This document shows, piece after piece, positions 21,891 through 44,323 of a DNA stretch of 64,000 nt; the stretch's first letter is position 1; every line of letters starts with the position of its first letter. A program made the translations under genes and the position numbers. The DNA is from Pohlia nutans (lineage: Eukaryota > Streptophyta > Bryopsida > Bryales > Mniaceae). The DNA is taken from NCBI GenBank assembly GCA_022496805.1, contig CM040097.1, positions 22,744,072 to 22,808,071 of the forward strand, read 5' to 3'. The notes beneath the pieces are model-generated. The model saw only the letters and a list, made by a program, of their open reading frames with translations. It did no database searches and was not told the origin of the DNA.

Positions 21891-21939
21891 GGACGTCCCT
21901 AAACTCAAACACAACAAGAATGTAGACGAGTAGTGTACG

Positions 21940-22585
21940 ATGGAAGAGGAGAGATACATGTTTGACGGCCTAGGACGGAATGAGGAGATAGTAAGTTTAG
22001 AAATTCCCCACATTCCATTTAATCCATCGCCGGAACGTGAGAGGAATGAGAAAAGTGCTGCAGAACGATATCGTTATGAGTATGTGATGACACCCTTCTC
22101 ACAGTCCACGCAAGCTTGGAAGTGGAGGGTGGAAGAGGAGGAGCGGCAACGATATACGGACAAATTGAAGAGGGAAGATGTGGTGGAAAGAGAAGAAGAT
22201 GCGGTGGAGGAGTGAGAAGAGGTGGAGGATGAGGACAACACGGTTGACGACGAAGAGGAGGTCAATGAGGCAATGGATTCTTCGAAGCCGTTGTCATTTT
22301 GTGAGAGCATGCGAGGGTTATCACCACATCCTTTGCCATTGAGAGAATGGATGAAGGACCGAACCATTAGCTATGTAGATTTATTTCGACCCAATCTAGT
22401 AAGCCCGCCTTGATCAAATGAGGAACATGCAGCAAGAGCTTCAAGGAGCTGGGCATATCGGTTTCGTAGTTAAAAAGACAATGAGAAGTCTAGAGTTGAA
22501 CGGTGTGAAAGACCTGCAAAAATTATTGTACTGCAATGATTGGACAAGAATAAAGATCATTGAATATGGTTTGTACTTTTCGTAG
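21940..22585 (+). pseudogene. Acidic left-end ORF of the outer MULE
   Basis: ATG at 21940 opens a frame running to 22413, broken once by TGA at 22213-22215 and continuing in the same frame. The product is highly charged: an Arg/Glu-rich middle, an EEDAVEE-type acidic stretch, then LSFCESMRGLSPHPLPL and a tail with WMKDRTISYVDLFRP. A separate 55-codon frame from ATG 22418 to TAG 22585 (KTMRSLELNGVKDLQKLLYC) may be a further exon. I recognise no family. It lies between the left terminal repeat and the transposase 3' end, convergent with the transposase. No equivalent is seen in the inner MULE, so it may be a captured fragment. Confidence 0.35.
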
Positions 22586-22699
22586 AGTGGAGAAAGACAT
22601 ATTTTTATTTGCTTGAGTGATAGAGCAAGTACACACGCGGTCAACAAACGACCACGTCCATTAGGGACAAAGTATTCCTAAGCCGGGTACAAGTCTAGG

Positions 22700-23956
22700 T
22701 GGTAGAATGTGTCAAGAGGCCACCTTCGAGGATGAGCTTGACCTTGTTGAAACTAAAGGTCCGGGCGTGTATGAACATGTTAACTTTGGGATCTAAATTA
22801 GAAACATTGACGAATATGTAGTAGAGGTGCTTACAATTCAGATAGGAATTGCGCCTGCTTCCAAACTAGATAATCATATTTTTGAAGGCCGCGCAAGTAC
22901 ACTCCGGGTGAGAGCTCACCGTCACTTGGTAAACGGCATCCGTAGGAGGAGGTTTGGACTGCAACATGATAATACAATCGAACCCCGGGTGGAGGATCAT
23001 GGTCAACTTCAAAATGGTTCCGTGCATGGCTTGAGCAGATCCAACATTATCCCTGCGTTTTTCGAGGACCCAGTGCCGGAGCGTCGAGTAGCCTTGGATT
23101 TCCTTGTGGAAGGAATGTAGTCGGGGTTGTCGGGAATTCCAACCCTTGACAAGTCGAGTGGGGCTGTGGGGGAGCAGAGTTCTTGAAGAATCGAGTTGGA
23201 TTGACGCGCTCCTTAGAAGGGAGTTGGAATCCTGCATTCTCAAGGGCCACGATCTCTGGGCAAGTGAGTTTAGTACCAAGTATAACAGGCCACACGGAAG
23301 GAATTGGGAACTTGCCTTGGGTGTCTGAAAATGGGATGACCCACTTGCGACAGAAGCCCTTCACATAACGCTCGATGTCGTCCGGACATAAGAAGAACTT
23401 TATAGATTTCTGTTTTTGCATTGTGTAAAAATCCCAAACTCCAGAGTAGGCCGGGCAAGCAACACTCCGATTGTTGGTGACGAGCTTCGCAGTGCATTTC
23501 TTTTTAGTACCCGTATGCATGGTCTAACAAGACTTGCTAGAATTGTAAGGGACACGGGCTATATGCCAAACCAACTCGTCAACCTTGATTTTTTGAACGG
23601 CGGTGAGTCGACGAAAATCAAGCCCGGACGGTGGAGGCTCTTGAATTTCTTGCACGTCTAGAGAAGACTCTTCAACAAATGTAGGTAGGATTACGGGATT
23701 AGATCTAGAGAGTCTCTTACCGGGACGGGGGCGAGAGTAGTTGACGGTGTCGGGGCGGTGTGTCTCATCATCTGCACCAATGGGGGTATCGGGCCTACGA
23801 TTCTGCGATCCAAACACCTCAGCGCCCTCGAGGTGTGGATTTTGAGTGCAAAACTCCTCGCCTCCGGGTATGTCTAACAAGACCTTCTAAAGCACAGCAG
23901 GATCACCGGTGCGCTCGGCACGGCGTTGGGCGCTACGAAGTTTCAATTCCTCCTTG
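22700..23956 (-). pseudogene. MULE transposase remnant (C-terminal part, SWIM), outer MULE
   Basis: Read on the minus strand, this matches the C-terminal half of the transposase at 26.8-28.3 kb. Its pieces are EEFCTQNPHLEGAEVFGS, then CPDDIERYVKGFCRKWV and a SWIM zinc finger with CTCAAF followed by CKHLYYIF. The tail FIHARTFSFNKVKLILEGG closely parallels the inner copy. SWIM fingers bind DNA in Mutator-type transposases. Frames shift at least twice and a TAG lies inside the SWIM motif. The 5' part (zinc finger and DDE) is absent because the sequence is cut at 23957 by CACTA-like DNA. Confidence 0.8.
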
Positions 23957-24610
23957 CACTAGTAGAAAACATGGTAAAAAAAAACCGCAGCCAAAATTGG
24001 TTGCGGTTCTTTTGAACACCCTAATCTGTAGTCGCTTAGCCACTACGGATTTTTCAATATTTTTAAATAATCCATTTTTAATCATTTAGGGGCGTGTAAT
24101 ATACCGTTGCAAAGGCATTTACAAGACCTTTCCAAGGGTATATTATAAGCATTAAAATTCTAAAAATTGCAGTCGCAAATCCAAAAAAACAAAACCCACA
24201 GTGGCAAAATCCACAGTGGCCAATCCCACGGATCTGTGGGATTAGCCACCATGGAGTTTTTCGCAACATAAAACCCAAAGTGGTTCTTTTGACCACCCTG
24301 ATCTGCAGTCGCTTAGAGACTACAAATTTTTCTTTTTTGATTTACGATTCCAGTTTTCATCATTTTGGGGCGTGTAATATACCGTTGGAAAGGTATTTTC
24401 AAGACCTTTCCAGCGGTATATTACACGCCTTGATATTCCAAAAATTACAGTCGCAAATCAAAAAAAACAAAACCACAGTTGTCAATCCCACGGATCCGTG
24501 GGATCAACCACCGTGGAGTTTTTTGCAGCGGAAAACTCCATGGTGGCCAATCCCACGGATCCGTGGGATTAGCCACCATAGAGTTTTGTGCAACGGAAAA
24601 CTCACTTGTC
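23957..24610. mobile_element. CACTA-like element fragment with repeated hairpins
   Basis: Starts CACTAGTAGAAAACATGGT, the same end as the 331-bp hairpin element at 15066. Inside, the hairpin GGGGCGTGTAATATACCGTT...TATTACACGCC occurs twice (about 24090-24150 and 24368-24430). The palindrome AATCCCACGGATCCGTGGGATT occurs at 24484-24504 and 24549-24570, with a one-mismatch copy at 24222-24242. No matching right end was found. The sequence to 24968 is AT-rich and unassigned. Further copies of the palindrome at 25655 and 47957, on either side of the LTR element, suggest the retrotransposon inserted into this CACTA-like DNA. Confidence 0.6.
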
Positions 24611-24968
24611 CTATCGATTTGTTCAATTTTTCATTATTTTTCATCAGTTTTCACAATTTTGCACCATTCTTCATCATTTTATTTCAAAGGCTGCACTTTT
24701 TATGACTAGTTGGAGTTATGATATATAGTTGCACTCTATTTATTACTACTTGGAGTTAATTTTCCTTCACATCTGTGAATTCTGTCACCATTTCTCACCA
24801 TTTCTATTTTAAGTTTGTGGAAATTTAACCTCAGATCTTCTTTTCTCACATAACTAATTTTTCCAATTTATCTTGTTTTTTTACTCCTCTTATATATTTA
24901 ACTAATTCTAGTTTAACGTTCTTACATGTTGTCTTATTCTCGTTTGCCATTTTTAATCTCCCTTTTTA

Positions 24969-25296
24969 ATAACCTCTAAACGTTCCAGCGTCCAGAAACT
25001 GGATCATGAACAGATTTGAAGCCTTGTAGCTTTCTCATACAACCTAGGATGATTTTCATCCAAGTCACTTTTCAAAGCCTAATAAATTATGTACCAATTA
25101 CAATAATTCTATTGTGACGGGGAGTTCTTAATAATATTGAAGAGGCCTTCAACTACAAGTATGTCTAATTTGTTGGGTAGATTATATGCTCAATGGTCTT
25201 CTCATGTACACCTCATTTACATATAAGCTATGCTAATATCTACTTTTGACACAATAATCTACTTCTGTTCAACGGGTTGGTACGTTTAGGGGTTAA
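24969..25296. mobile_element. Short piggyBac-like element (328 bp)
   Basis: The left end ATAACCTCTAAACGTTCCAG and the right end (reverse complement) TTAACCCCTAAACGTACCAA are inverted repeats of the same type as 5881-6699. The left TTAA has decayed to ATAA. No coding capacity. Confidence 0.6.
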
Positions 25297-25699
25297 ACTT
25301 TCTTGTGGGTATCGTGGGGCGGGTATCGAGGAGGCGGGTATCGTGACGAGGGTTGGTATCGGGGGCATGTACCACCCAGCTCCTATCGGTCCAGGAATTA
25401 GGGTTTGAATTCTCGGGTCCTGCAGACTGCCGCTCCTGTCGCTTCCACGCGGCAACTGCGAATGGAGTCCAGGGCCTTTGCTCCGATTGCTCCGATCACC
25501 ATCTCTGTAAGTTTCTCCAGAACAGCACCTCTGCAAGTTTCTCTCCGATCAGCATCTCTGTAAGTTGCTCCGATCAGCACCTATCTAGGCATCTGATGCA
25601 GAAGATTTCGAAGTAGTAATTCATCTGCTTGGAGACAGAGGTTCTGGAGTTGGCAATCCCACGGATCCGTGGGATTAACTTCAATGCCAAAAATGGCAT
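25297..25699. other. Repeat module flanking the LTR element (left)
   Basis: Contains the phrase GCAGAAGATTTCGAAG and then the palindrome AATCCCACGGATCCGTGGGATT at 25655-25676. A matching module lies at about 47905-47990, beyond the right LTR. The last bases before the LTR, GGCAT, correspond to GGCAC after the right LTR. No gene seen. Confidence 0.5.
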
Positions 25700-26242
25700 T
25701 GTTAAGGGGGTTTTTCTAGGAACCGACCTTAAACGAATGAGACTACTCCTCACAAGACTACTCTACGCTAGACTAGTCACTAGAGATTGAGGGTAGTAGT
25801 AAGAGGTTTCTACAAAGGAGAACGTACTATCGACTAGGAAAAAGCACCAGTATGCTAGAGAGTCGACTCCTGCATACCCACAGACTACTGCAACTAATCA
25901 AGATACAACCACAAAGAACGATACAAGAGCAAGAAACAACAGTAGTCTAACAGCAGTAGTCTAACATACTAGTGCGCACAACAATAGTTAAGACAAGAAC
26001 GACGTACAATTGAGGCTGCCAAGAAGATGTACAAAATGTATAGCAACCACCCTCTCAACGAGAGGGGCAGTACATATAGGAGACTAGTCTGACAGTGTGT
26101 CAGACTGGTCGACCGAAAAAGTCGGGTCGACCAGTCTGTGCCAGTCTGTACTACCGGGTATCGCCTGCCGGGTCTATACCTGTCGGGTATAGACTAGCCT
26201 ATACTTAGCCTAAAGGAATATCCAACAAATATTCGGTTAACA
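25700..26242 (-). repeat. 3' LTR of the Ty3/gypsy element
   Basis: 543 bp, beginning TG and ending CA. Near-identical to 46959-47501; differences include A/G at about 25780 and 25830 and C/A at about 26009. Confidence 0.95.
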
Positions 26243-26256
26243 TTGCCCTCCCTCTG
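26243..26256 (-). other. Polypurine tract
   Basis: Read on the minus strand, AGAGGGAGGGCAA lies directly against the 3' LTR. This is the expected place and composition for the plus-strand primer, and it fixes the element's orientation as minus. Confidence 0.75.
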
Positions 26257-26820
26257 AGCTAAGTACACTCCTGTGGACTTTAGTCTACCCCAGTAGGCGA
26301 CGGACGAGGATACTATGCGAGCGGTGAGTAGAGAGCGGAGAGCAGAGAGCAGAAAAAAAGCGAGCCAAGAGCACAAATTTGGGAACATAATTTATAAATA
26401 GATTTTTTAAAACTAATTTTAGAAGAATTTTTTCAAAATATTTGAATATTCTGTGGAATATATTTTTTGAAATAGACTATTCAAATATTCGTATATTTTT
26501 AGAAAATAATATTGACCTATGACCGTGGGCTGAAACGTGGAAAAATGGTATTTGATTTACACTTTTCTTTCAACCGCATGATTTTTTTATTTCAGGGTTT
26601 ATTGCTTATTCCATCAATTTTGGTTTAGGGTGTCCTCAAAGCTGTGAGTGAACACATACACTTGTTTGGATGTTGATGCAGTAATTACAAAACTTCAACA
26701 TGTGACAAAGAATTTTGAAATAATAATAGATAGAAGACACTTTATATTGCTGAAATCGTCAAATAAGCCTGGAACATAAATGGTAGGTCATTGGACTCCG
26801 TTGAATGTACTATAGGACTC

Positions 26821-29800
26821 CTACTTTTCAACGAAAGGGTGGGTCAAGATCCCACTTTCAAGGACCAGTTTGACTTCGTTGAAGCTGAACGTTGGCGCGT
26901 GGATGAACATGTCAATCCAAGGATCGAGATGGCAGACCTTCAAGAAGATGAAGTACACATGCTTGCAATATGAGAATTGGTTTCTCCCACGAAACTTTGT
27001 CATTGTCATCTTGAATGCAGGGCAGCTGCAGCCTGGTAGGGAGCTAATTGTGATCTGATACTGCTTCACATCTGGTGGCGTTCCCGAGTCTAGAGCGATG
27101 ATGCAGCCATGGCCAGGGTGAGGAATCATTGTCACAGCATGGAGTCGAGCTTTGAGGGACTCTGAAGAGCCCAAAGCCAGCCTCTGCTGCGGATTTGGAC
27201 GACCAGCAGTTCGCTTGACGATCTTCCCTTCTCTTTTTGCAAGATACCTACCCGCGTCTGCAGGTACGGGCACGGTGTCCAGACTTGCAGGAGGCTTTGC
27301 TGTGGAAAACAGCCTTCATGGAGAGACAGGCAGTTTCTGCGGTAGTTGGAACCCAGCAGCTTGGAGGGCAAGGATCTCACTTTGCTTGAGGTTTGTTCCA
27401 AGCTTCACTGGCCAGACATCAGGAATGTTGGGCCTCTCTTGCTCCCTAGAGTACAGAACTACCCATTTCCGCCTTGTACCTTTGACACACCTTTCGATAT
27501 CGTCCGAGCAGAAGAAGAATTCTGAAGACTCTTGTACGTTCTTCCTAGTGTTGTGCCATAGACCGGTGTACGTAGGGGCTGGGGTGGGTTTCGCACCCCT
27601 CACAATTCTCTCTAGACACTTCTTCTTTGTAACAGCTCTTTGGGCCCAACAACACTTAGCTGAAGTCTTTGGCAACCGAGCAATGTGCCACTCCTTCACG
27701 TTAACTCTGGTCTCCTCAACACTAGAGACGTGACGAACCCGTCCTTGACTACGGGGAGAAGGAACTGCGTCGTCGGCTTGTGGTGAAGAAGGTGCAACTT
27801 CGAGGACGTTGGATTCATCTTCCTCAGCTATCACTGACATGTGAGCGGTGCGCACCGTGGTTGTTCTGCCACAGCCACGGGGATGCGAGAAGTTTACCTT
27901 ATCCGGCCTGTGTGACTCATCATCAGCTCCAAGTGGCAAATCCACACTGCGCTTCATGGAGCCAAACACTTCCTCTCCAGCCATGTGAGGATCACGTGTA
28001 CAGAACTCGTCGGCCCCAGGCATATCGAGCATGGGGTCCTTCAGGCCCTTGGGGTCACCTGTCTTTTGAGCCCTACGCTCAGCCATGCGAAGCTTCAGCT
28101 CTTGTTTGCTTGGTCCAATTCCCCCTACATCACCCTTCAAATACTGGTAGTAATTGACGACTTGCAGAAAAGCCCGAATGTAGTCATCCACTATAGCAAC
28201 CTAGAGATCACCACCGTTGTTGCCGGACGCTTGAAGCCACTTGTTATGGACAGACTCTGCAAGATTGCACGACGGCATCTCCGCGAGTTTGTCCTCTGAG
28301 AACATCTAAAGAAGTCATGTGAAGAGAAGTTAGCCAAAATTAGTGGTCGGGTCCGACTCATGCGTAGATTGTAAGGGCATGGAGCTGAAGAAGACATGTA
28401 AAGAGAAGTTAGCCAAAATTGGTGGTCGGGTCCGACTCATGAGTAGACTGTAAGAGCATGGAGCTGAAGAAGACATGTGAAGAGAAGTTAGCTAAAATTG
28501 GTGGTCGGATCCGACTCATGAGTAGACTGTAAGGGCATAGAGCTGAAGAAGTCATGTGAAGAGAAGTTAGCAAAAATTGGTGGTCGGATCCGACTCATGA
28601 GTAGACTGTAAGGGCATGGAGCATGCAAGAAAGGACGTGTGTACTCACCCCGACCATAAATCCTCCCCATTGGCGATAACGGAAGTGCTAAAATGCCAGC
28701 CACAACTCAAGTTTGCTCAAGGCTGACTCGGTCACAGCCCCAACGGATACCCACCATGCTTTAAGTCCTTGATACAATCTCTCAGCCTCGGCCATTGTTT
28801 GAGCCTTCTTGTACTGGTGACACAACTGCTTGTGTTGGTCCCACAGATCTTCAGCGATGTATTTCTCAGTATGCTTCACCATGGACTGGGTCCAGTGAAA
28901 TTGACAAGTCCTCTCACGGTCGTCCATACGTTCCTCCTTGTTGCCGGACCCATAGACAACCCGGACAGCGTTCCAGTTGGCTTGGGCACTGTCTGCCATG
29001 AAGCCTTTGAAGTTAGGCATGTCAACACCGTGTCGCTTCATCACGGCGTTGAGATTCTTCCAGAAGATCATTTGGGCTTCAATGTCCTCCGATTGCATGT
29101 CGCAGCAAGCAATAGTCATGACACGGCAGTAAGTGGAGTCATAGACATGGCAAGCCATCGTTGTCCATTGCTTGACTCGTTTCACATGATCGAACATCAA
29201 CCAGGCATTCTCAAGATCACCCTTGGGTTGCATCCGCTTCACTAGGTCCACCCCACTGCCGGGGCCCACTTCAGACATCTTGAAGACGTACACCTTGTCC
29301 AGCTCAGAACCTTGGCCAGGGAACATGTTCATTTGAACAAAAGCCCAGTTGCTAAGGCCTCGCAACCTAGTGATGCTGTCCATGACACCGTACCTCCTCA
29401 AGTACCTGAAGGTGATAACCTTATTTCGAATATTGGGTGAAGCCATGTCTTTGCATCGATCCAGCACCGGAACTAGTTCCTCAAAGCTCAACGTCTTGGG
29501 CGGATCGTCCTCGGACCTCAACAAGTAGCCTCCGATGAGAGTCTTGCTTGCCTCTAATACCAATGCACTCTTTGTCGCTTGCGGAGTCTTCTCAACCTAA
29601 TCTCCAATTAGACTGTTGATTTCGACTTTGGTGTCCCTATAGTCACCAACCTTAACAAGATGCTCGTGAGATCCAAGGTGGATGCAAACACGGGTTCTGT
29701 TACATTTGCCGGACACATAGTAGATCTTTGCTCCACAAGTGGCAAGACAGGAGGGCGGTTCTTTACACACCTTGCACACCACGGTCGAGCCTCTAGGAGG

Positions 29801-30040
29801 ACCCTGGCCCACAACAAATGCTAGCAGTGTGCATCCATCAAACTCACTCTCGTTCACTTCATAGATGCGATGTTCACGTCTAAGGTAGTCGCACTCTTTA
29901 TTCTCACATCGCAGGTGCTCTACACAGCAAGAGAATCGAAAAGAGAGACCCATGGTATTAGTAATGTTAGATGTGATGGTCTTGGTCCACACATGGCCAT
30001 CGTAGCGCTTATCCATTCCATGCATAGCCTTTGCCTGCGA
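26821..30040 (-). pseudogene. MULE transposase (zinc finger-DDE-SWIM), inner MULE
   Basis: Catalyses cut-and-paste transposition in intact relatives. In protein order: a Cys/His-rich N-terminal domain (CCVEHLRCENKEC ... CIHLGSHEH, 29.6-30.0 kb) resembling WRKY/GCM1-type fingers; a catalytic region (28.69-29.56 kb) with the candidate acidic residues VYDSTY and FMADSAQ followed by CQFHW; an intron of about 340 bp (about 28306-28648); a linker domain (27.3-28.3 kb); and a SWIM finger, CSCPAF ... CKHVYFIF (about 26.91-27.03 kb). Stops lie in frame at 29597 (TAG), 28201 (TAG) and 27316 (TGA). Removing them gives one continuous frame on each side of the intron. The exact intron ends are uncertain because phases do not join cleanly at the obvious sites. 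Likely non-functional. Confidence 0.85.
28311..28625. repeat. 79-bp tandem repeat in the transposase intron, four copies
   Basis: Four head-to-tail copies (CATGT anchors at 28316, 28395, 28474 and 28553). Each includes GGTCGG(G/A)TCCGACTCATG, so each carries one copy of the GTCGG-N2-CCGAC motif seen elsewhere in this MULE. Confidence 0.9.
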
Positions 30041-30185
30041 ACGAGAGGCGGACGCTTCAACAGGAGATTAGAGCTTAGTAATTACATTGCGCCAAGTTGT
30101 GCGACCATTGAAAGATTGTGACTGGCATGCATAAGAAGATGGGAAGAAATCGGAATTCTCAAAATGTGAGTGCAAGTAGTAGCTA

Positions 30186-30452
30186 GTGAAAGAGGGAGCT
30201 TTTCAGATGCATGACGTCTCACCATGTGAAGGTGCAACACCTTCAATTGCTAAGACGAGGAAAAGGGGAAAGCACCTATTCTCTAGTGCGAAAGAGCTCA
30301 AGCGTTCTAGGATGAGAAATGCAGAGAGTAGGAACAGACGTTATGCTAACTTGAGGGGCACCATCAAGACATTATCAGCCAAATTTGCCAAACTTCCAGT
30401 GGAGACCGTGCCTCGCCCTTCAGTAGAGCAAGAAGACAATATACGATCCTAG
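30186..30452 (+). CDS. Small basic ORF, 88 codons, unrecognised
   Basis: Lies in the middle of the inner MULE, upstream of the transposase on the other strand. The product is strongly basic (KTRKRGK and KRSRMRNAESRNRR), followed by a heptad-like segment (LRGTIKTLSAKFAKL) and a short acidic end. It could be a DNA-binding peptide or the first exon of the downstream gene. Start assigned to the frame opening at 30186 or the ATG shortly after it. I know no family that fits. Confidence 0.3.
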   Translation: MKEGAFQMHDVSPCEGATPSIAKTRKRGKHLFSSAKELKRSRMRNAESRNRRYANLRGTIKTLSAKFAKLPVETVPRPSVEQEDNIRS

Positions 30453-30599
30453 TCCGATTGTGAGACAAAGGTGCAACTATCTGTGGACCTTCGTGTTCCT
30501 AACGACAATCAGGTATCACTTCTATGAAGCACTTTTTTCCATTAGGATATCAAAACTTCCACTTGCATTTTTCAAGGCGCAGCGGTGACATATGTTTGG

Positions 30600-30790
30600 A
30601 CAAGGGGCAGCTTCTTGGGCATGGGGAAGCGAATTTTAGCATGGGCAACATTTTGGGCATGGGGCAACATTTTGGGCATGGGGCAGCATTGTTGGCTTGG
30701 GGCAGCATTATTGGCTTGGGCAGCACTTTTGGCTTGGGGCAGCACATTTGGCTTGGGGCAGCAACGGCGGGCAAGGGGCAGCAGTCAAAT
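30600..30790. repeat. About 21-bp GGGGCA minisatellite
   Basis: Roughly nine tandem variants of GCATGGGGCAACATTTTGG and CTTGGGGCAGCA. Both strands are open through the repeat, but this follows from the unit length. Confidence 0.85.
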
Positions 30791-31249
30791 GTTTCAGCGG
30801 CCGCCCAAAACCCTAATCACGAGGGACTGTCTTTGTGAGCCTGTCTTTGTGAGCCTTGTCTTGCAGGGCCCGGCTTCTTTACTGCGAAGCTCGCGGAGCT
30901 CGTGGACGGAGTTGTGCCAGCAGGTACTGGTCCTCGTGATGTTTGCTTGAAGGCGTTTTACTCACGTGCTCTTCTTCTTGCGCATGACTAGCTCGTGACT
31001 CACAATCCTCACACACTTGCTGTCCCTTGCGTGCCAGGTGCTCGCATCCTCAAGTGCACCTGTCGAGGTACTCATCTACTCTTGTGCATGCTTTCTAGTT
31101 CGTTTAGTTGCTGCTCTTCTCACTAGGTTGCATCATATTTCTTCTCACTGATGCAGGATGCACCCACTCACACGTCGCCCGCAAGCTTGCTCAACTCGCG
31201 CCCACAGGTACGGAACCCTAACCCTACTCAACCCTAACCAGTGATCACG

Positions 31250-31610
31250 AGGCAGTGATGCGTGAGATCACGAGGCAGTAGCGTGAGATCACGAGGCAGT
31301 GATGCGTGATTCTAGGGCACAATGACACAATGATTCTAGGGCAGTGCGGAATTAAGGGTCGGGTCCGATCCATGATCTAGTGGCGTGAAGCCAGTGATTC
31401 AAGGCCAGTGATTCAAGGCCAATGATTCAAGGCCAGAGACCACGAGGCAGTGATGCGTGAGATCACGAGGCAGTGATGTGTGATTCTAGGGCACAGTGAT
31501 TCTAGGGCACAGTGACACAGTGATTCTAGGGCAGTGCAGAATTAAGGGTCAGGTCCGATCCATGATCTAGTGGCGTGAAACCAGTGATACTAAGGCAGTG
31601 CCTCGCCACG
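31250..31610. repeat. Duplicated block of about 185 bp
   Basis: The phrase set GATCACGAGGCAGTGATGCG, GATTCTAGGGCA, AATTAAGGGTC(G/A)GGTCCGAT, CATGATCTAGTGGCGTGAA occurs twice (about 31250-31400 and 31440-31590). Confidence 0.8.
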
Positions 31611-31789
31611 CATCACACTTTACTCCCTTTCGCTCCAATTATGCTGCCCAGCACGCGTGTGAGTAATGAGAGTGACTGAGTGAGGTGCCAATTTGAGATC
31701 ACGAATCATGGGCTGCAGTGATGCAAGTGATGCGATTGATCCAAGTGATGCGAATGATGCGATTTTAGGGTGGCGAGGCGTGATAAGTG

Positions 31790-32890
31790 GCGAGGCAGTC
31801 AAGCGAGGGGAGGGAGTGGCAAGGAGAAATACATGGAATTTTCGACAGTCAAGAAATAGGGGTCGGGTCCGAATTCCCAATCCGAGTGGCGTGGCGTGGC
31901 GTGATGAGGGAGTGGCGTGGCGTGGCGTGGCGTGGTGAGGGAGTGGCGGCAGTGCGTGGCGAGGGCGAGGGCGTGGTGAGAGAGTGCATATACATTGAAA
32001 TTTTGATTCTCAAGAAATGGGGGTCGGGTCCGAATTCCCAATCCGAGTGGCGAGGGCGAGGGCGTGGTGAGGGAGTGGCGTGGCGTGGTGAGGGAGTGGC
32101 GGCAGTACGTGGCGAGGGCGAGGGCGTGGTGAGGGAGTGCATATACATTGAAATTTTGATTCTCAAGAAACGGGGGTCGGGTCCGAATTCCCAATCCGAG
32201 TGGCAAAGGCGAGGGCGTGGTGAGGGAGTGGCGGCAGTGCGTGGCGAGGGCGAGGGCGTGGTGAGGGAGTGGCGGCAGTGCGTGGCGAGGCGTGGTGAGG
32301 GAGTGGTCTGGCGTGGTGAGGGAGTGGCGTGGCGTGGTGAGGGAGTGGCGGCAGTGCGTGGCGAGGGTGAGGGCGTGGTGAGGGAGTGGCGGCAGTGCGT
32401 GGCGAGGGTGAGGGCGTGGTGAGGGAGTGGCGGCAGTGCGTGGCGAGGGCGAGGGCGTGGTGAGGGAGTGCATATACATTGAAATTTTGATTCTCAAGAA
32501 ATGGGGGTTGGGTCCGAATTCCCAATCCGAGTAGCGGGGGCGAGGGCGTGGTGAGGGAGTGGCGTGGCATGGTGAGGGAGTGGCGGCAGTGCGTGGCGAG
32601 GGCCAGGGCGTGGTGAGGGAGTGGCGGCAGTGAGTGGCGAGGGCGTGGTGAGGGAGTGGCGAGGGAGTGGCGAGGAGATATACATTGAATTTTGGACAGT
32701 CAAAAAATAGGGGCCGTGTCCGAATTCAGAATCAAGTGCGAGTAATGGACTGTGATAAACGTTGGGTTTTGCTACACTGTGATACGTGGCGAGGCAATGA
32801 TGCGTGGCGAGTGCAAGTGATGCGAGCGAGTGCGTGGCGAGGTAGTGATGCAAGCGAGTGCGAGTGATGCGAGCGAGTGCGTGGCGAGGC
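31790..32890. repeat. GTG/GAG minisatellite with embedded higher-order unit
   Basis: Dense repetition of GTGGCGAGGGCGAGGGCGTG, GTGAGGGAGTGGCGGCAGTG and a longer block, CATATACATTGAAATTTTGA, TTCTCAAGAAA(T/C)GGGGGTC, GGGTCCGAATTCCCAATCCG. Open frames of up to about 230 codons on both strands are a by-product. It forms the untranslated region between the two MULE genes. Confidence 0.9.
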
Positions 32891-32958
32891 AATGATGCGA
32901 GCTAATCTCAAAAACCCTAAACCTTACAATCCACGAGTCATATTTGCAAGTGAGGCTG

Positions 32959-35900
32959 ATGACACGGATGGTGGTAATGCAAATGCAGGACCTTGAAATG
33001 AGAGGCACAGAAGCCATGGAGGAATACTCCCAAGACCATATGGAAGTAGAGGTGGTTGAAGCAACGCCCAACCCGGGTGGAGATGGAGTGCCCTCGTGCG
33101 AGAGACGGCAATTGATCTTGGACTGCGCGTCAAGCGAGAGTGGGTCTGGAGCTAATGGCAGTGGCGGGTCTGGAACTCATGGTGATGGATCAAGTGGAAC
33201 TCGTGACGGTGGCGGGTCAATGGCTCGTAGTGGTGGCGAGTCAGCTGCTCGTGGTGGTGGCGGGTCTCATGCTCATGGTCGTGACGACTCAGTGACTGGT
33301 GGTGGTAGCGGGTCAGTGGCTGGTGATGGACTCGTGGTGGTGGGTGCTGAAGGAGGCGGGTCTGCCGCCGGTGTTGGTGTCGAGTCAATTGCTGGTGATG
33401 GTGGCGGGTCTGCTGCTGAGCCAGAGGAGTGCATTGGTGACGGTAGCAAAGGGTCAGAGCCATTGCCCCCATTAGAGCGTGCGCGCCGAAAAGTCCTTGG
33501 CCTTACAAAAGCAGGGGACAAAATTCGTGCTGGCTTAATTCATGGGAACTTGCATGCACTAATTGAAGGAATGAGAACAAAACCCTTTTCAAAGGATGTC
33601 CTAAGAATCCCACTTTGCAGAATGGTCTACATGCCAATGGTAAGGCCAACACTTTGATGTGATGTAGTAAAGCTCATGGGAGCATTTCGCTATGGATACA
33701 AAACCAACTCGGCTGCCATGTATGTTTCTGTGACAAACGATGAAGGCGAGGTGAGGAATGTGAACCAAGAAATCATGGACCAATGGAACCCGTGCTGGCA
33801 TCTAGAGAATGATGCATTTGAGCAGAGGCTTAGGTCAGATCCTGATCTACAGTGCTTAAGTGGCTCAATGTTCTTTGTCTATGATGGAAACCATAGACTT
33901 ATGGCGTGGAAGGAGGTGACTGAAAGTATTCATGCAGATGATCAACAGTGGTACTCAAAGAATGGAAATCCCGAGTGCGTTGTACTTGACACCGCTGGAG
34001 GTCGTGGAGATATCCACAGTGCAATGCACGACATCAACTCGTAAGCTATGACTTGTACTTGGATTGCTTGATTTTGGTTGCTGGAATTCTGTTGAATTTT
34101 TAGTCTCTTGGAATCGAGATTGAGGACTCTTGAAATGACAAATGTGCAGTTCTAATCAAACAGCTCACGTGAAAACTAGTGTGGTTCACACGCTTCATCG
34201 AATTCAAAAGTATGGATCATATGACTTAGAGTACTTTAAGCCAATGCTTACAGCAGAGCAATTCAAGTCATGCCAATCGAAGTCTGTGAAGACTTGGTAC
34301 CCACTCACTCGAGACTTAATGGTGAACTTCATTTTTAACGTAAGTATCCTCTCAAGCAATACTATCTTCACGTGTTTAGCTAGTAACTCTATAACCAGGG
34401 GCTGAACTTTGTGACTTTACGTGACAATGTAGGATGAAATTCTCCAAGTTGCAAATGAGGCTGGGCAGATGTACTGGGAAGAAGTAGAAGAGAGCAAAAA
34501 GAAAGAGGAGCTTTCTACTACGTTCAAAAAGGCGTCATCAGTTGCTAATCCAGCCTTTGGAGTTGAGTTTATGGAGCAGGTGAGTGATGAGATTGATTGC
34601 AATTAATGTGTCAAGTTATTTTGACTACTTGATCGTAACCAATTGTGAATGAAGTGAGTAATGCGCGTGAATGTGAGATGTACTTGTGGACCCAGCTTTT
34701 TCATCTTGTGGATTGAGGTGTAGACAGCAGTATTGGAATAGGTAGAAATCATAGGTCGGGTCCGACTTAGCTTGTGTGCGAGAGAGCGTGCAATTGCGTG
34801 TGATGTTGCATCACGTGATAACAGCAATAGCGCGCGTGATGCATGCAAGTGATGCATGCGAGTGATGCCTGCGTGCGAGTGATGCCTGCGTGCGAGTGAT
34901 GCACCAAGTTGTGGAGAGACCATAATTAGGAGTCCGGTCCGACACTCCATTTAGCCACTGAATTGAGTATTGTGTCAAAAGAGTCGTTGTGGTGGCGAGA
35001 CTTGGGTACTGGGTACGAATGCGAGTGATGCGAGATGAAAGTGATGCGCAAAGTGTCAAATGTGAATATAGGTACTGCAACGTGATTAGGAAATCCAAAA
35101 TTCAAGGATCGGTGCCATTGAGCCTTGAGCTGAGCTATGGGTGGGTTTTGGCTAGAAGTACGCATCTTGTTGATGACAGGGTGAATTGAGGGGTCGGGTC
35201 CGACTCCAACTACTGAGAGTGTGAGCTACAAGAGTATGAGACTTTGAACTGGTAAGTGATGCGTGCGAGTGAAGTATTCTAGCAACTGTTACCAGCAGTG
35301 GGGAGACCAGTGAGTGGGGAGACAAGTGAGGAGTGACGCGTGCGAGTGTTTCGTGCGTGATGCGTGGCGAGGCAGTGATGCGAGGCAGTGATGCGAGCGA
35401 GTGAAGCGTGCGAGTGATGCACTATGATATGGGCAATCAAGAATGAAGGATCGGGTCCGATCTATAAGAATGCGAGTGTAGAATTGAGCAGTGTTTGGGT
35501 GAGTGATGTGCGAGTGATGTGCAAGTGATGAGGGCAAGTGATGGGCGAGCGATGGGCGTACGAGCAAATTTCCAAGTTTCTAAGCTCTCCAGGTTTCCAA
35601 GTTTCCAAGTTTCCATGTTTTCGAGCGAGTGAGCGAGCGATAGACAAGTCAGTGTGAGATGTATGTAGCGAGTGATGAAATATGCATGGGACAGTCACAA
35701 TTCAAGGGTCGGGTCCGACTGGTGTAGTTGAGCATTGCACAAGGCTGGTGATGCATCGTGCGAGTGATGCGTGCGTTGCGTGCTAGTGACGCGTGCAAGT
35801 ATTGCGTTGAAATATGGGAGTCAGAATATAAGGGTCGAGTTCGATGCTACTAGACTTAAGTGTCTAGTTCTATTGACATTTGAGTGTATTCTCCTTTGAG

Positions 35901-38550
35901 ATGCAGATTGTGGAGCATTACAGTGCGCATGTTGCTGCCAAAGTCGAGATGACACTAGAGAAATTGCAACTGGTGGCAACAGCAGTAGTGGAGCCGAAGT
36001 ATAAGGTGCGCTGGCTGAAATGGTGGAATAGTCCATCATTTGTTTGATTGGACCTAAGGTTTCCAAAGTCTCCTGCAGGTGAGGACACTCTAAAGAAGTG
36101 GTTGGATCGTGCTGCGTTTTGGGCAGGGATAGAAGAGACCGCCAATCAAGAGCTAGTTGGTTATCTAGCTCTAGTTGGTGGTGTTGATAGTTCTAAAGTT
36201 GTTGATAGTTTCGAGGACTACATTGAGAACTGGCGGATTTGCCTTTGGGACAAGGCGTACAACACCTATTTTATGGGCCCTGACGCGTATGGAAAATCCA
36301 TGAAGTTTGAGAAAATCAAAGACGGTGACCTTGTTGTGAAACGACTCTGTCTAAGGTTAGTTATCCATTCTCACAAACGTGGGTAATGCGAGAAACTGAG
36401 TAATGCCAGTGACGCGAGGGCACTAACGCCAGCTCACGTGAGTAGTGATGTTTGGGTAATGATACAAGTAATACAATGCGACTAATGCGAGTAACTGGCA
36501 GTTTCGAAAGTATTGAGTTATGCGAGTAATGGGTGGGATTGCGAATGATGGGCACTGAGGGTACTACTTTGTTCATTGTGTAGGTACATGAAGCAAGTGC
36601 TCCTCAAGGCAGGTGCAATTCAAAAGTTACCACCGTGTGTACAAGGATGGTGCGATTCTTCCTCACCGACCTACATCTTCTCAAAGACGCAGAAGAGGAA
36701 CTTCAGCAGAGACCACCTCATGGAATGTTGCTAGTACATCGAATGCCCCAAGAGTTTTGTACCTGATTCCGAGGCTGAGCTCAAGAAATCATTGACTGCC
36801 ACGGTCGAGTTCTCTGATGAGGACGAAGATGAGGATGAGGATGCTGATGCTGATGAGACTGCAGCCGTGGATGCACAGAAGTCGAAGAAGAAGGCGCCAA
36901 CGAAGGAGAAGGCTACATCGTAGAAGAAGGCACCAACGAAGGGTGACAGCACTGTCACGGAAGTTGCATCGAAGAAAGTCACTACCAAGGGCAAGGCTGC
37001 ATCCACTGTTGCCTCCAAGACTGGAAGCAAGTCTGCTCCAGGAGACGACACGGTGATGACTGATGCCCACAGTGAGCCCCTTCCACTCACTCAGAGCCGG
37101 GTGAAGCAGCCGACTCCTCCTACTTTATCACAGCCTGCACCCACTGAGTCTAGTCCGCAAGCACTTGTCATCAACCACTCCGTTCTTGAGCAGCAAGGAT
37201 TATTTAAAAAGGTTCAAAATTTTGCTCTGTCATGCTCTCCTTCTCGTTCATGTAGCTTCCGTGGGGTGCCATCAGTGCTTGGACATGCAGACTTGGTGAT
37301 TGCAGACTTACCAGAGGGTCTACCGGTGCCAAATGTCTCGGTGCCATCATCCGTGGTGCCCACTTCGAATGTGAAGTCTGAAGCCTACTTGCAGGAGTCG
37401 TTCGAGTTTGCAGATGAGATTCTACATGATAGTGGGGCACTGCTGCTTTTCTTTCCATTTGACAATGGCGAGTTCCTTGAGGACATTGAGACCTTTTTTG
37501 ACTCTTTTGGATTTGCAATCTGCAAGGAGTGGATGGGGGTCAACTATTTGCCCATGAGTTCAGCAAGGGTTTCCAATACCACAACCAACAGATTCAATAT
37601 GCTTCTGCTCAAGCGGGTGTCTCGGCCCGAGGACTCAGTGTCTTGGAGTTCAACCTTTTCCATTCGTGATGTGCCAGAGTTGGTTGCCCATGGTGTAAAC
37701 GTTGGCCTCAACGACACATTGATCAATCACTGCACCAATCCTCTGATGGATGGTGTTCGTCCATGGCGAGGCCCAAGGGAGAAGGATGAATACTTTTTTT
37801 CTTGCCTTGTTATGGCTTTGACCACGGTTGGGGACATTGTCATTGATGTAGCAACTGGCACTGGTAAGAAATATTCTTCTTTGCTTTCCTTGCAAACTAT
37901 TGGCCTTTGCTTTTTTGTATGTTAATGTGTACTTATCTATTTATGGTGTGGTTCTTTTTAGGGAATTCCATCACTGCTTGCAAGAATACTGGTAGGCACG
38001 TTCTGGGCATGGAGAGTGACAAGAAGCTGTTCGAGGCTGTTCTAAAGCCCATGATTTCTCTTGCAAAGGCTCCACCAATTCCTTCTGCTCCTGTACTATC
38101 TGCAAAGAAGCCAAAGAAGGCTGCTGCAGTGAAGCGCCGTCGTGTGGAGGACCCTCAGTAAGTAAGTGCCGCTTACTCTTTCTTTTCATTTGTAGCTTCT
38201 ATTGTATTTTGATCTTTATGATATCACTTGTGTCTAAAATTTTCCTTGTGTTACTGCATTCTAGACTCTTTCCAAGTCCGGCTAAGAGTTGGAGACTTCC
38301 TTCATATGCAGAAGATGTTGCACAGTTGCAAGCATTGCAAGTATCTCCTCCTCTTCTATTAGATCCTCCCCCGAAGTATGACTCTTGTGTTTTAAAATAT
38401 TTAGATGTTGCTGCAGAGGTTGATTTTGATCTAAGTGTGTCTCAAACTCAACCCAGTGCTAGTGAATTTGAGGAAGGCTCAATGTCGCAATGCACCAGCA
38501 TGGTTAATAATGGTTTGATTTATGTGGATGATGAGGCGATTAGTGAGTAG
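32959..38550 (+). pseudogene. ParB-like / DNA-methyltransferase-like MULE gene, copy 2
   Basis: Best-preserved copy. Exon 1 (about 32959-34041) starts with a Gly/Ser-rich tail, then IPLCRMVYMP and the ParB-like signature FFVYDGNHRLMAW, and ends at a GTAAGC donor. Later exons cover 34149-34339, 34433-34578, about 35906-36356 (WWNS, WLDRAAFWAG), 36583-37864 and 37962-38160, with a last exon at about 38264-38550. Methyltransferase motifs: ADLPEG at the DPPYG position, then GDIVIDVATGTG, intron, NSITACKNTGRHVLGMESD for motif I and the following acidic residue (37.28-38.06 kb). The usual catalytic DPP is altered. Stops at 33655 (TGA), 36045 (TGA) and 36921 (TAG), and a frameshift near 36620, break the frame. 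The first TGA aligns with a sense codon in copy 1. It probably arose from a prokaryotic or phage-like ParB-methyltransferase fusion; the present function is unknown. Confidence 0.7.
34620..35905. repeat. Intron filled with GTGATGC minisatellite and GTCGG/CCGAC motifs
   Basis: Between two exons of copy 2 lies about 1.3 kb of degenerate GTGATGCGTGCGAG repeats. GGTCGGGTCCGACT or close variants occur at about 34756, 34932, 35195, 35450, 35708 and 35832. The same intron in copy 1 (about 15967-16038) is short, so the expansion is specific to this element. Confidence 0.8.
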
Positions 38551-39302
38551 ACCTCAATGATATTGTATTTCCCTACAGCTATATTATATCTATATTTTGC
38601 ATAGCCATTGTAATGGCTAGTTTTATGTTTATCATTTGTACTTTATACTCTTGGTTATATTCTTTGAGCTCATTGTTTTAGCTTACTAGCTTACTTATAT
38701 GGTGTTTGGTGTTGTTTGGGCAGTGAGTGTATTAGCAATTAGTGTAATAGTGTATCGTATGTATGTTTGGTGTAATCTCCTAATTTGTGTATACTCTTTA
38801 GTGGAATAATATTGTTTCAATTATGAGATTGTATAAGAGAATGTTAGAATTCAAAATAATCTGATATGAGAGAATGTTAGAATTCAAAATGAGATCTTCA
38901 TACGAACCTAAACATCCATCACTAGTACATTGACATCATCACTTTATTCCCTCTTAGACTAAATATTGTGAATTCATTCAATCCTAATTCACTCCTAAAC
39001 ATTCACTCCTAGACGTCAATCCATTCACTCCTAATTCAACCCTGGCTAGACAAATTATCGTATGTAACAAGCTTACATGAGTGATCCAAGTCCGTGAATG
39101 AATGTCCCAAAATTCTATATCTCACTGCTAAATTCTCCTAAATTCCACGGTTATACACGCCAATTCTCCTAAAAAATATTAATAAAAAAATGAAAAAATC
39201 CATGGTTATAGGAACCCTAACCCTAAAAATGACTGCGAAAATGTTTAAAGTCTGCTCTTTAATTTCTGCTCTCTGCTCTCCGCTCACATACGACCTTTCC
39301 CC
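38551..39302. other. 3' flank and right terminal region of the inner MULE
   Basis: AT-rich DNA containing a repeated phrase (GAGAGAATGTTAGAATTCAA, twice near 38840-38890) and a CTAACCCTAA patch at about 39217. The terminal repeat begins with CTGCTCTCTGCTCTCCGCTC at about 39267. No gene. Confidence 0.6.
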
Positions 39303-39462
39303 GGTAGGCGACTAGGGAAAATGGTCACGAGGAGTGACAAAATTACCCGTGGTTGAGACGTCTGCGAGTAGTCGACCCGTACTATTGTCGACTCGTCACT
39401 GGTTGGAGTCTTGGGTCATGATGGGGTAGGTGATTCCTGCAGGCATCCCTGAAAAGTCGAAG

Positions 39463-41706
39463 CTAGGGGATTGCTGAAGAGAATGTGGTGGGTGAGTCGA
39501 CTCGAGTGTCAACTGCTGTTGGTGTGCTTGCTGCTATTGTTTGGTCGGGTGCTGGGTGCTGCTTGCCTTGCTGCTGTGGTGGAGGCTGTCGCTCCTCTTC
39601 GGTGGTTGGATGCTGCTGTGCTGGTGGTTGTTGCTGCTCCGCTTCTTGTGGGTCGGCTGGTGGTGCCTGCTGTTCCTCTTGCTGCTGGTCTCTGTCCTCG
39701 TCTTCGTTGGTCGACTCACTATTGTCCGCGTCCTCGTCTTCACTCAACTTGACATTGGTAGTCACTACCTCGTCGTCGTCAGTCGACTGGTTCTCCCAGA
39801 GTGAATGGTCGGGTTCGTGGTGGCTCTTATCTTCGTCTTCTTCTTCGTCGACAGGTGGAATCTTCAAGTCGGGGTGGTCGAGCTGTAGTTGGTCGAGGGG
39901 AGGAGAAACTTAGGGAAATGGCGGTGAAGCAAGAGGGGGAAGAAGGGGCGCGGCCATAGTACTAAATACTTGCCCTATTGGCCTTGCATTCAAAACTGAT
40001 GTGACAGGTGAGGTCGGCATCCATAAGTGTGGCGGCTGGTCTAGGGTTTGACCAGTCAGGTTGACCAGTTGAGTCGACCAGTCGAATCGACCGACTAGGG
40101 CTACAGCTACAGAGGGCGGCGCCCATAAATATGGCGGCTGGTCTAGGGTTTGACCAGTCGGGTTGACTAATGGAGACGACCAGTCGAGTCGAGCAACTGT
40201 GGCTACGGCTACAGATGTCGGTGTCCTTAAATATGGCGGCTGGTCTAGGGTTTGACCAGTCGAGTAGACCAGACGAGTCGACCAGTCGAGTCGACCGACA
40301 GTGGCTATGGCTACAGCAGTTGGCTTGTGTCGGCTGGGCTCATCTTCATTCTGTACTAGCATTGACTTGATGTCAGATTTACTAGTGGGTGGGCTTGACA
40401 AATCCGTGGGGAAGCTATCGTGTAGGACTCGGTAGGGTTTAAGTTTGTTGACATTGACTACTACCGGGTCGGGGTCGAAGTGTTGGAGACTGACTAGGAA
40501 GACAGTGTTGTTGGGGAGGGCGTACTGTACTCGATACGGGCCGAACCATTTGCTACGGAGTTTACCGGCATGGACATTTGTACCTTTCGGGTGCCATAGG
40601 ACGTAGTCGCCTACGTTGTACAGAGTCGACTGGCCCTGGGTCTGGACCCACTGTGCTCGGTTCCACTGCTTTTCGCCATGCTGGATGGCAGCTGCTAGTC
40701 GACTCTCATCCAATTTTTCCAGGTCGGATACGAGGGCTGCTAGTACTCGCCTGGGTGTGAAGTCGGTAGTCGCTCTCGACCGTTGAGTCGGGATGATGTA
40801 CTCGGTAGGCATCAATGGTGTCAGACCATAGACCAATTAGAATGGGGTGTGACTAGTGATGACCTTGTATGCCGTCCGGTACGCAAAGAGGACTGTATGT
40901 AGCTGTAAGTCCCAATCGGTTCGATTCTCGTTGACTAGCTTCTGCAGCATCCGGACTATGATCTTGTTGGTCGACTCTGCCTGGCCGTTACCTTGTGGGT
41001 AGTAGGTTGTGGAGGTCGTATGTCGAAGTAAAAAATGTTCGGTGAGGGTGTGGACCGTGCTATTGATAAAGTGAGCACCTTGGTCGCTTACTAAGTGAAG
41101 TGGACAACCAAATCGGGTAAGGATTGCCTCGTACAGGAACTGTGCAGTTTCCCTGGCGGTGTTTCCTCGGAGAGCTCGAGCCTCGACCTATTTGGTGGCA
41201 TAGTCGGTAGCCACCAGAATGTATCGACAGGCTGTATGTCGGGTCTTCTTGATGGGGCCGATGAAGTCGAGTCCCCATTTCATGAAGGGTTCCGCCGGTA
41301 GTTGGGTGACGAGCTTGGAGGAGACGGTCTTGGGTAAGCCGCCTGTCATCTGGCATTCATGACACGACTGGCAGTACCGCACAGCGTCTTGGTGTAGAGT
41401 CGGCCACCAGTAGCCTGCGTCTAGTATTTTTCGTATAGTGATGTCATGAGAAAAATGTCCTCCAGCGTTGCCTTTGTGTAATTCTTGGAGGATTGTTGTA
41501 GGCTGACTGCCGGTTAGGACTTGTCGGAGCTGGTGGTCCTTACCGAGTCGGTACAGTCGGCCGTCGAGTACTTGGTACGGGATGGCTTTGTGAGCTATTC
41601 GCTTGCGAGCTTCCTTCGTCATGTAGGCTGGAAAGGTCCCGGTAGTCAAGTAGTCGACTATCGGGTGTAGCCAGTCGGGTTCGGTGGAAAAGAGCTGCGC
41701 GTTCAT
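39463..41706 (-). pseudogene. Ty3/gypsy integrase with repeat-rich acidic C-terminus
   Basis: Inserts the retroelement cDNA. Read on the minus strand: an HHCC zinc-binding module (H at HKGNAGGH, CQSCHEC), then the DDE core with the first Asp in WGLDFIGP, second in LVSDQGAHF and Glu in NGQAE. A GPY-like module follows (KWFGPYRVQY ... NKLKPY), then three tandem copies of a roughly 35-residue unit containing (S/T)GQTLDQPP. The end is a long Gln/Pro/Asp/Glu-rich tail with DEEEDED. In-frame stops: TAG at 41188, where the conserved sequence has Trp (YATK-W), TAA at 40837 where TPFQLVYG is usual, and TAA at 39910. The C-terminal repeats and acidic tail are not a standard chromodomain. Confidence 0.85.
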
Positions 41707-43114
41707 TTCTTGATAGTGCGTCGGCTACTCCATGCGTTTTCCCTGGTTTATAAACCACAGTGAAGTCGAATTCAAGAAAAAGTAGTAGCCAGCGTGCCAG
41801 TCGACCCGATACCTGGGGTTTGTTGATCAAGTACTGGAGCGCTAGGTGGTCGACATAGAAGACAAATTTATTACCGAGGAGGTAATGACGGAATTTGTTG
41901 ATGGCGTACACCATTGCAAGGGCTTCCTTCTCGGTTGTTGTATAGTTCTTCTCTGCTTTGTTGAGTAGTCGGGAAACGTAGGCTATCGGTTGGTCGATGT
42001 TGCCGGTCGGGTTCTGTGCTAGCATCGCTCCGACTGCTATGTCGGATGCGTCTGTGTGTATGTGGAAGTCGAGGGACCAGTCGACTCCGATCAGGATTGG
42101 TGCAGTCTGGTATCGATCCTTGATAGTCTGGTATGCTGTCGCACAAGCCGGCGTCCAGTCGAACGGTTCGCCTTTCCTGGTCAGCTTGGTGATGGGCTCC
42201 ATGATGGCAGCATAATTTTTTATGAAGCATCGGTTGAACTGGGCTAGTCCGTTGAACGTCTGAATGGCTTTGACGTCCTTTGGTGGTGGCATGTCGACTA
42301 GGGCCTGGATCTTCTTTGGATCCGGAAACTTGCCTTCCCGCCCTACAATGTAGCCCAAAATTACACCAGAAGGGACATAGAAGATACACTTTTCTGGGTT
42401 GAGGTTTACCCCGTACTGTCGACATCGGTCGAAGACTAGTCTGAGTTTCGGTATGTGGGAGTCGATGTCGCTGTAGACACTGAAATCGTCTAGGAATAGC
42501 TTCATGAAGTCGCCCAGGTACTCTTTGAAGATCTGGTTGACGATGCGCTGGTAGGTAGGCGGGGCGTTCTTCAATCCAAACGGCATCACGACCCATACGT
42601 ACGCGCCCCACTTGGTGATGAAAGCTGTTTTCGGGCGGTCGGTCGGGTCGATCAGTACCTGGTGGTAGCCTTAGAAGCAGTCGATGAACGAGTAGGCTTC
42701 ATAGCCTATGACTGCGTCGAGTACCTCGTCTGTGAACGGGAGGGGGTACGGGTCTTTCTTGGTTGCCGCATTAAGTCGACGAAAATCCACGCATATCCGT
42801 AGTTTCCCATTCTTTTTGGGAACCACGACTATTGGGGATAGCCATGTAGCCTGGTCGACTGGCGCAATGAACCCTGCCTTTAGAAGCCGCTCCAAGTCGT
42901 CCTTCACGGCTTGTGCATAGTTCGGGTTCATGCGGTAGCGTGCCTGGTGACTAGGCCAGATGGTCGGGTCGAGCTCGATCCGATGAGTCGCTATATGTTC
43001 TGGTATGCCTCGCAGATCTTCGTAAGAGAAGGCAAAGATGTCTATGAACTCCTTGAACAGGGATTCGGCACTGGCTCTGAGACTAGGGCTCAGATTCGCG
43101 TTCAGCTTCAACAT
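41540..43114 (-). pseudogene. Ty3/gypsy reverse transcriptase-RNase H
   Basis: Copies element RNA to DNA. Motifs in order: LSPIVVVPKKNGKLRICVDF, then DPYPLPF, MPFGLKNAPPTYQ, the catalytic LFLDDFSVY, and LGYIVG. The RNase H domain has TDASDIAVGA, EKEALA and FYVDHLALQYL, and the stretch ends in KTHGVADALSR. A TAA at 42671 interrupts the conserved F-x-GYHQ motif, where related elements have Ser or Gln. A one-base insertion in an A run near 41702 shifts the frame between RNase H and the integrase region. Otherwise it is well preserved. Confidence 0.93.
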
Positions 43115-43174
43115 CTTGGGGTCGGTAGAGGTACCGACGTTAATATGGTCGAGTCGATCCTCCTCATTGTGATT

Positions 43175-44296: not shown

Positions 44297-44323
44297 TTGA
44301 TCACGTAGTAGTTCTTGGGCAGT

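Follow-up and report, generated by a model that had tools for sequence, protein, structure and literature searches.

What would a plant transposon do with a gene that joins a ParB-like domain to a domain related to bacterial DNA methyltransferases? The question is raised by a stretch of 64,000 nucleotides from the Antarctic moss Pohlia nutans (assembly GCA_022496805.1, contig CM040097.1, positions 22,744,072 to 22,808,071 of the forward strand), referred to here as the window, in which a Mutator-like element (MULE) carries, besides its transposase, a many-exon gene that we call gene 2. An earlier note on this DNA had proposed that gene 2 is a captured prokaryotic-type modification protein that became a standing component of a MULE family, perhaps marking element DNA or countering silencing. 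We are highly confident that the element is a MULE with ParB and beta-class methyltransferase-related domains, a confidence that concerns the identity of the element and its domains alone. Gene 2 recurs beside the transposase in two subfamilies across the genome, its sequence has been held by purifying selection between subgroups, and the catalytic motif expected of its methyltransferase-like part is replaced at every locus that we read.

Two divergent genes in a nested MULE

The element in question (the inner MULE, 26302..39302, 13,001 bp) lies inside a Ty3/gypsy long terminal repeat (LTR) element on the minus strand (25700..47501, with LTRs at 25700-26242 and 46959-47501), which is itself inserted in an outer MULE (21367..50601). 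The sharp ends and the target duplications of 9 to 10 bp claimed for the inner element were borne out. Its left terminal inverted repeat (TIR) region (26302..26355, plus strand) begins with GGACGAGGATACTATGCGAGCGG, its right TIR occupies 39265..39302 on the minus strand, and the target-site duplication (TSD) at 26292-26301 and 39303-39312 matches at 9 of 10 bases, reading AGTAGGCGAC on the left flank and GGTAGGCGAC on the right, with the 9-base core GTAGGCGAC exact. The outer MULE has an exact 10-bp TSD, GCTGAAGCAC, at both sides. The TIRs of these MULEs are short and imperfect, with GAGCGGAGAGC-type repeats, and a pattern based on the left end of the outer MULE (at most 3 mismatches) matched the window twice, at that end and at the inner right end, against no match in 100 shuffles. 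The gypsy LTR pair is 98.3% identical over 543 bp and is flanked by GGCAT and GGCAC. Ten further copies were fetched from the genome, six of them with ends that were not both recognised. A 10-bp TSD is present in four of the six elements with two recognised ends (inner MULE 9/10, outer MULE exact, C17:0.33 9/10, C5:38.3 exact), and the remaining two, C1:39.5 and C8:8.7, have no target duplication. A TSD of 8-11 bp is the length given for MULEs in the main text of a survey of these elements (PMC6446971). The moss element thus combines the TSD length and the terminal inverted repeats of a MULE with an RNase H-like transposase of the IS256/Mutator kind.

This transposase is encoded on the minus strand in a catalytic block (tp1, 28688..30067, with one in-frame TAG at 29597-29599) and a C-terminal block (tp2, 26821..28200, with one in-frame TGA at 27316-27318), the latter giving a weak SWIM match (E 0.003-0.0086, below its cut-off). 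Of 54 members, 2 gave a Transposase_mut match (best E 0.034), the families listed did not include the MULE profile, and a PDB sequence search with the transposase alignment returned no match of note. The assignment is backed by sequence relatives and by the predicted fold of a homologue. The model of a transposase homologue (P0002) also contains N-terminal beta-grasp-like and GCM-like DNA-binding domains (residues 28-115 and 204-390).

Gene 2 lies on the plus strand, divergent from the transposase, and comprises seven exons (32959-38550) encoding about 1180 residues. Exon 1 (32959..34041) encodes a Gly/Ser-rich N terminus followed by the ParB-like domain, exon 2 (34148..34339) the region after the ParB core, and exons 3 (34433..34579) and 4 (35907..36356) follow; exon 5 (36582..37865) encodes a linker and then the methyltransferase-like domain, exon 6 (37961..38158) the end of the motif I loop with the following strand/helix (GNS...GMESD), and exon 7 with the stop codon closes the gene at 38263..38550. 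The earlier note's picture of a minus-strand transposase facing a plus-strand, many-exon gene with ParB and methyltransferase-order motifs is therefore upheld by the exons, the fold and the profiles. The reading frame is interrupted by four in-frame stops, TGA 33655 in exon 1, TGA 36045 in exon 4, and TAG 36732 and TAG 36921 in exon 5, the second of which is counted as in-frame because a third copy of the gene, described below, shows 35907-36356 to be one exon. With these four stops and the two in the transposase, the inner copy must be considered dead. An alternative genetic code was considered for the stops and rejected, since TGA and TAG are mixed, vary between copies, and are lacking in several copies that are open there. 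GC-rich minisatellites (31800-32730 and 30590-30780, spacing 41 and 19 bp) occupy part of the space between the two divergent genes.

Both genes are present in eight of the ten fetched genome copies, and no copy was found to have the two demonstrably intact. Copies elsewhere in the genome are less broken than that of the window: in C1:39.5 all seven gene 2 exons are free of stops where they could be aligned, and so are both transposase blocks in C5:38.3, with a break of the second block near residue 440-450. The outer MULE was said to carry the same two genes; both are there and in the same layout, but as remnants only, namely a decayed C-terminal part of the transposase with a SWIM-like motif (22707..23955, minus strand, 45-50% identical to the inner transposase) and the C-terminal, motif I end of gene 2 (49397..50132, plus strand). 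The third copy of gene 2 (14431..18900, plus strand) is divergent in sequence and more complete, with 37% identity in the ParB part and 34% in the methyltransferase part, and contains a frameshift, stops and an inserted palindromic repeat. A right MULE-type end (19265..19305, minus strand) follows directly beyond it, and a left end was looked for and not found within the window. A fourth ParB-exon fragment (19980-19550, minus strand) lies directly beyond the end of the third copy, and a palindromic repeat resembling a miniature inverted-repeat transposable element occurs both at the ParB exon border of the third copy (15065-15397) and beside the outer transposase (23957-24472), the two being 81-90% alike. 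Such nesting and clustering of element copies would also suit an interference gene, whose product would not assist its own element but would repress its relatives or the DNA-repair or methylation machinery of the host, or compete with them; we consider such interference highly improbable.

A ParB/sulfiredoxin fold joined to an altered methyltransferase module

The ParB-like box of gene 2 lies at about 33870-33910. Fold comparison of the model of a ParB-exon homologue matches ParB/sulfiredoxin, and this predicted structure supports both the ParB-like identity proposed earlier and the assignment of the N-terminal module to this fold. The box reads DGNHRL at what we take to be the position of GxxR in ParB/Noc/KorB/sulfiredoxin. 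In predicted fold and in this box the module resembles sulfiredoxin and the CTP-dependent clamps ParB, Noc and KorB, whereas it differs from the clamps in having no Pfam-level sequence match, and CTP use and clamp closure are putative. Pfam gave no ParB family for the 30 ParB-exon members scanned, and neither a ParB nor a methyltransferase family on single window sequences, for which profiles and fold comparison were needed; a PDB sequence search with the ParB alignment also returned no match of note. Against 5.8 billion proteins, the ParB exon found 30 relatives of 42-81% identity, while full-length gene 2, with 7989 candidates, had no match with an E of 1 or less, a miss that is likely due to a length filter because the exon alone has these relatives. 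The ParB alignment picked out 126 pattern-matching stretches in IMG/VR, none of which encodes a relative.

The second module has the permuted motif order of the beta class, with a motif IV-like sequence at about 37300 and a motif I-like sequence that an intron interrupts at about 37864-37961. Its relationship to beta-class methyltransferases, also claimed earlier, was confirmed by several profile matches. In the PDB, a profile built from three copies of the window hit adenine methyltransferases of the DpnA type (E 2.1e-7) as well as CcrM (E 7.5e-5), a five-member profile aligned with CcrM along the permuted order (profile 21-241, E 1.5e-6), PF01555 was found in four of five members (best E 2.7e-6; member 1 reached 23.6 bits, below the cut-off of 26.7), and profile matches to PHROG methyltransferases went down to 5.6e-8.

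Motif IV of the beta class is defined as [DNS]PP[YFW], and when CcrM is aligned, its DPPY comes to lie on the moss D-L-P-E, which in exon 5 stands within IADLPEGLPVP. We read this motif at 29 loci, 21 from one set (22 rows, with the incomplete L063 dropped) and 8 more; 28 of them come from the 150 scored methyltransferase matches, chosen across subfamilies, and the other is the third copy. The canonical motif, DPPY included, was present at none. Most loci read D-[LVI]-P-[DE], the exceptions being D-Y-Q-E in the third copy, D-L-L-E in C1:39.5, and an asparagine in first place in L047 and L058 or in last place in L049. Motif IV is thus conserved yet non-canonical across proteins that are only about 35% identical, and its acidic fourth residue is the distinctive change. 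The likeness to CcrM and the DpnA-type enzymes (6pbd, 5hfj) lies in the permuted order and the overall sequence profile, whereas their catalytic DPPY is replaced in the moss at all 29 loci. Because of this replacement, ordinary adenine methylation is doubtful, and with it the suggestion that the protein marks element DNA by methylation; for the same reason, we do not class the protein as an active member of the beta class.

The same motifs bear on the contrary reading, that the protein is an active enzyme depositing N6-methyladenine (6mA) or N4-methylcytosine (4mC) on the element that encodes it. D-x-P-[DE] would then be a functional form of motif IV, and the methylation would either recruit the transposase or counter silencing by 5-methylcytosine. 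The beta-class order, the similarity to CcrM and DpnA-type enzymes, the retention of the first motif IV aspartate in 27 of the 29 loci (all but L047 and L058, which have asparagine) and the selection on the methyltransferase domain, reported below, all speak for it, as does the prediction of 4mC or 6mA for the ParB-methyltransferase protein of the brown alga Ectocarpus (PMC12477816). A viral sequence also counts on this side: in IMG/VR, one of 108 stretches found with the methyltransferase alignment encodes a relative (L044, a 55-residue match), whose methylase-like frame (L044:2611-3189) has TDIPYD for motif IV and DPCMGSGTT for motif I. Its D-I-P-Y, in which the aromatic residue is intact, shows that the residue after the Asp of DPPY need not be Pro. 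However, none of the 29 loci has Pro as the second residue of the moss motif or an aromatic residue as the fourth, and the first glycine of the motif I GxG is replaced in the second-subfamily copy, the third copy and the outer copy. On balance, active modification appears decidedly unlikely to us.

Linkage and selection across the genome

The genome of P. nutans (697,796,988 bp, 332 contigs) was searched with each part of the element, and the best 150 of 1282 ParB-exon candidates, the best 130 of 2115 transposase candidates and the best 150 of 2312 methyltransferase-exon candidates were scored, so that the association counts that follow are lower bounds. At least 66 of the 109 ParB matches of 74% identity or more have an opposite-strand transposase on their 5' side within 15 kb, at a median start-to-start distance of 5.2 kb, and one of the 109 has a transposase in another arrangement among the matches listed. 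Random placement gave a mean of 0.22 such pairs and at most 3 in 200 draws, and chance association of the two parts was rejected on this ground. Seen from the other gene, at least 63 of the 75 transposase matches of 92% identity or more have gene 2. A methyltransferase exon follows downstream within 15 kb in at least 78 of the 109 close ParB matches, at least 52 of them have all three parts, and at least 102 of the 150 methyltransferase-exon matches have a same-strand ParB match on their 5' side within 20 kb. The three-part count used the top 72 transposase matches, none of which lies within 20 kb of 46 of the 109 ParB matches; insertions, decay or transposases of an older kind may account for some of these 46.

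The layout recurs in a second subfamily. At least 15 of the 41 ParB matches of 50% identity or less have a second-type transposase in the same arrangement within 15 kb, with none for the other 26 among the matches listed, and at least 14 of the 17 second-type transposases of 89% identity or more have a ParB exon. The further MULE copies with both genes that the earlier note had expected thus exist, and in two subfamilies. Its view that the gene belongs to MULEs agrees with at least 81 of all 150 ParB exons, which have a divergent transposase within 15 kb; for the 69 that have none among the matches listed, decay, insertions and unlisted transposases are all open explanations.

For a numerous sister lineage of transposases, with 76-88% identity to the query, 1 of 83 copies has a ParB exon within 15 kb and 3 of 83 have a methyltransferase exon within 30 kb, among the matches listed (the second-type and sister transposases come from another list of 130 matches, of which 100 were used; the 30 dropped were first-subfamily transposases). 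Either gene 2 was lost from this lineage or was never part of it, or it has diverged too far to appear among the best 150 ParB matches; gene 2 is apparently not obligatory. The notion of a standing component therefore holds for two subfamilies, where the gene is regular, but apparently not for their sister. Some sister-lineage transposases are single open frames of 1037-1265 amino acids.

These counts also bear on the possibility that gene 2 is a helper of transposition in the manner of mudrB, a factor for assembling or bridging the ends of the element, for directing its integration or for partitioning its DNA, with no role in silencing. Clamping and bridging of DNA are known activities of ParB folds, and the fixed divergent layout fits co-expression with the transposase. 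In addition, integration is described as apparently requiring mudrB (PMC6446971). Since the sister lineage spread with a ParB exon in only 1 of the 83 cases among the matches listed, we regard a pure helper of transposition as unlikely.

Ratios of nonsynonymous to synonymous substitution (dN/dS, Nei-Gojobori method) between subgroups are 0.07-0.11 for the ParB part, 0.14-0.18 for exons 2+4+6 and 0.11-0.21 for the methyltransferase part, against 0.25-0.31 for the transposase; within subgroups, where changes are few, they are 0.28-1.13, which is to be expected of decaying copies. To judge from these ratios, gene 2 is under purifying selection between subgroups (0.07-0.21), even though both genes of the window copy are broken, and it was kept functional while the family spread. 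This result largely refutes the idea of a passenger, a captured gene of no benefit to the element as in Pack-MULEs. Gene capture is frequent in MULEs (PMC6446971) and the window copy is indeed broken, but the same layout recurs in the inner and outer elements and in two subfamilies genome-wide, and dN/dS between subgroups is well under 1, so that a mere passenger is very improbable. The exons of gene 2 may not all share one history: between the inner copy and C1:39.5 (L035/L036), the ParB exon has a synonymous divergence (dS) of about 1.1, exons 2+4+6 one of 0.36, the methyltransferase part one of 0.19 and the transposase one of 0.11, a mosaic that suggests exchange of 5' exons between element lineages.

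Other features of the window

The polyprotein of the gypsy element (39463-46672, minus strand) consists of one-frame blocks split by single in-frame stops and is thus a broken copy. A host-type gene at 60017-61427 (plus strand) resembles the alpha subunit of a haem-dependent oxidative N-demethylase (PF11927, E 5.9e-49 and 8.2e-20), and long tandem arrays, about 75-94% alike, lie at 7792-8652 and 10149-12066.

Discussion

We tentatively favor the reading that gene 2 provides an element-encoded DNA-binding accessory protein whose methyltransferase module is mainly non-canonical or silent, and which protects the element from silencing or helps its transposase. The ParB/sulfiredoxin-fold module would load on element DNA, while the CcrM-like, methyltransferase-derived module would act mainly as a non-canonical or catalytically silent domain that binds DNA or S-adenosylmethionine, a role that we propose because the subfamilies seen have a conserved D-x-P-acidic motif in place of DPPY. 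METTL14, which stands beside METTL3, is an analogous catalytically silent partner. The protein might then coat or clamp its own element and so keep the silencing machinery of the host off it or open its chromatin, and such coating would thereby help the transposase, a function like that of VANC in VANDAL elements, reached from unrelated parts. In a bolder form, land-plant MULEs would have evolved a ParB-type clamp fused to a family-wide pseudo-methyltransferase (with a conserved D-x-P-[DE]), a protein that would coat the element and block silencing without methylation. This bolder form is doubtful, and if true, it would represent a new mechanistic class of anti-silencing factor built from prokaryotic parts.

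Genes of this kind are already known from algal transposons. The Ectocarpus element Sola1-1_Ec32 carries a gene for a 1104-residue protein with ParB and DNA-methyltransferase domains opposite its transposase, and similar proteins are stated to occur in transposons of green and red algae, where they are credited to Iyer et al. 2011 and Petroll et al. 2025 (PMC12477816). As far as that description allows a comparison, the moss MULE has the same arrangement, with a ParB-like and an N4/N6-methyltransferase-like domain in one large element-borne protein (about 1180 residues) opposite the transposase, whereas Sola1-1_Ec32 belongs to the Sola superfamily and to a brown alga. Among MULEs, the likeness is to accessory genes beside the transposase, such as maize mudrB, vanB/vanC of the VANDAL/Hiun elements, with VANC acting against silencing, and mutB; the main text of the survey that treats them does not contain the words ParB, methyltransferase or methylase (PMC6446971). 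A paper on polyvalent proteins of phages and plasmids names ParB 31 times and adenine methylase 6 times (PMC5512222), and these proteins are prokaryotic.

No report of a ParB-methyltransferase gene in a MULE or a moss was found in searches of open-licence papers, and neither "MULE" nor "Mutator" appears in the main text of the published P. nutans genome paper. The earlier note knew of no described MULE with this gene, and as far as the searched literature goes this stands; its implied novelty must be narrowed, since ParB-methyltransferase genes of transposons had been described from algae (PMC12477816). What is new here is the MULE superfamily, the land plant and the altered catalytic motif.

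These findings add a MULE, and with it a land plant, to the algal transposons from which ParB-methyltransferase accessory genes were known. The ParB exon has over a hundred copies, selection is measurable, and sister lineages with and apparently without gene 2 can be compared within a single genome. Mosses are transformable, which brings within reach an answer to the question that the absence of DPPY from all 29 loci raises, namely whether such proteins are transposon methylators or DNA-coating pseudo-enzymes.

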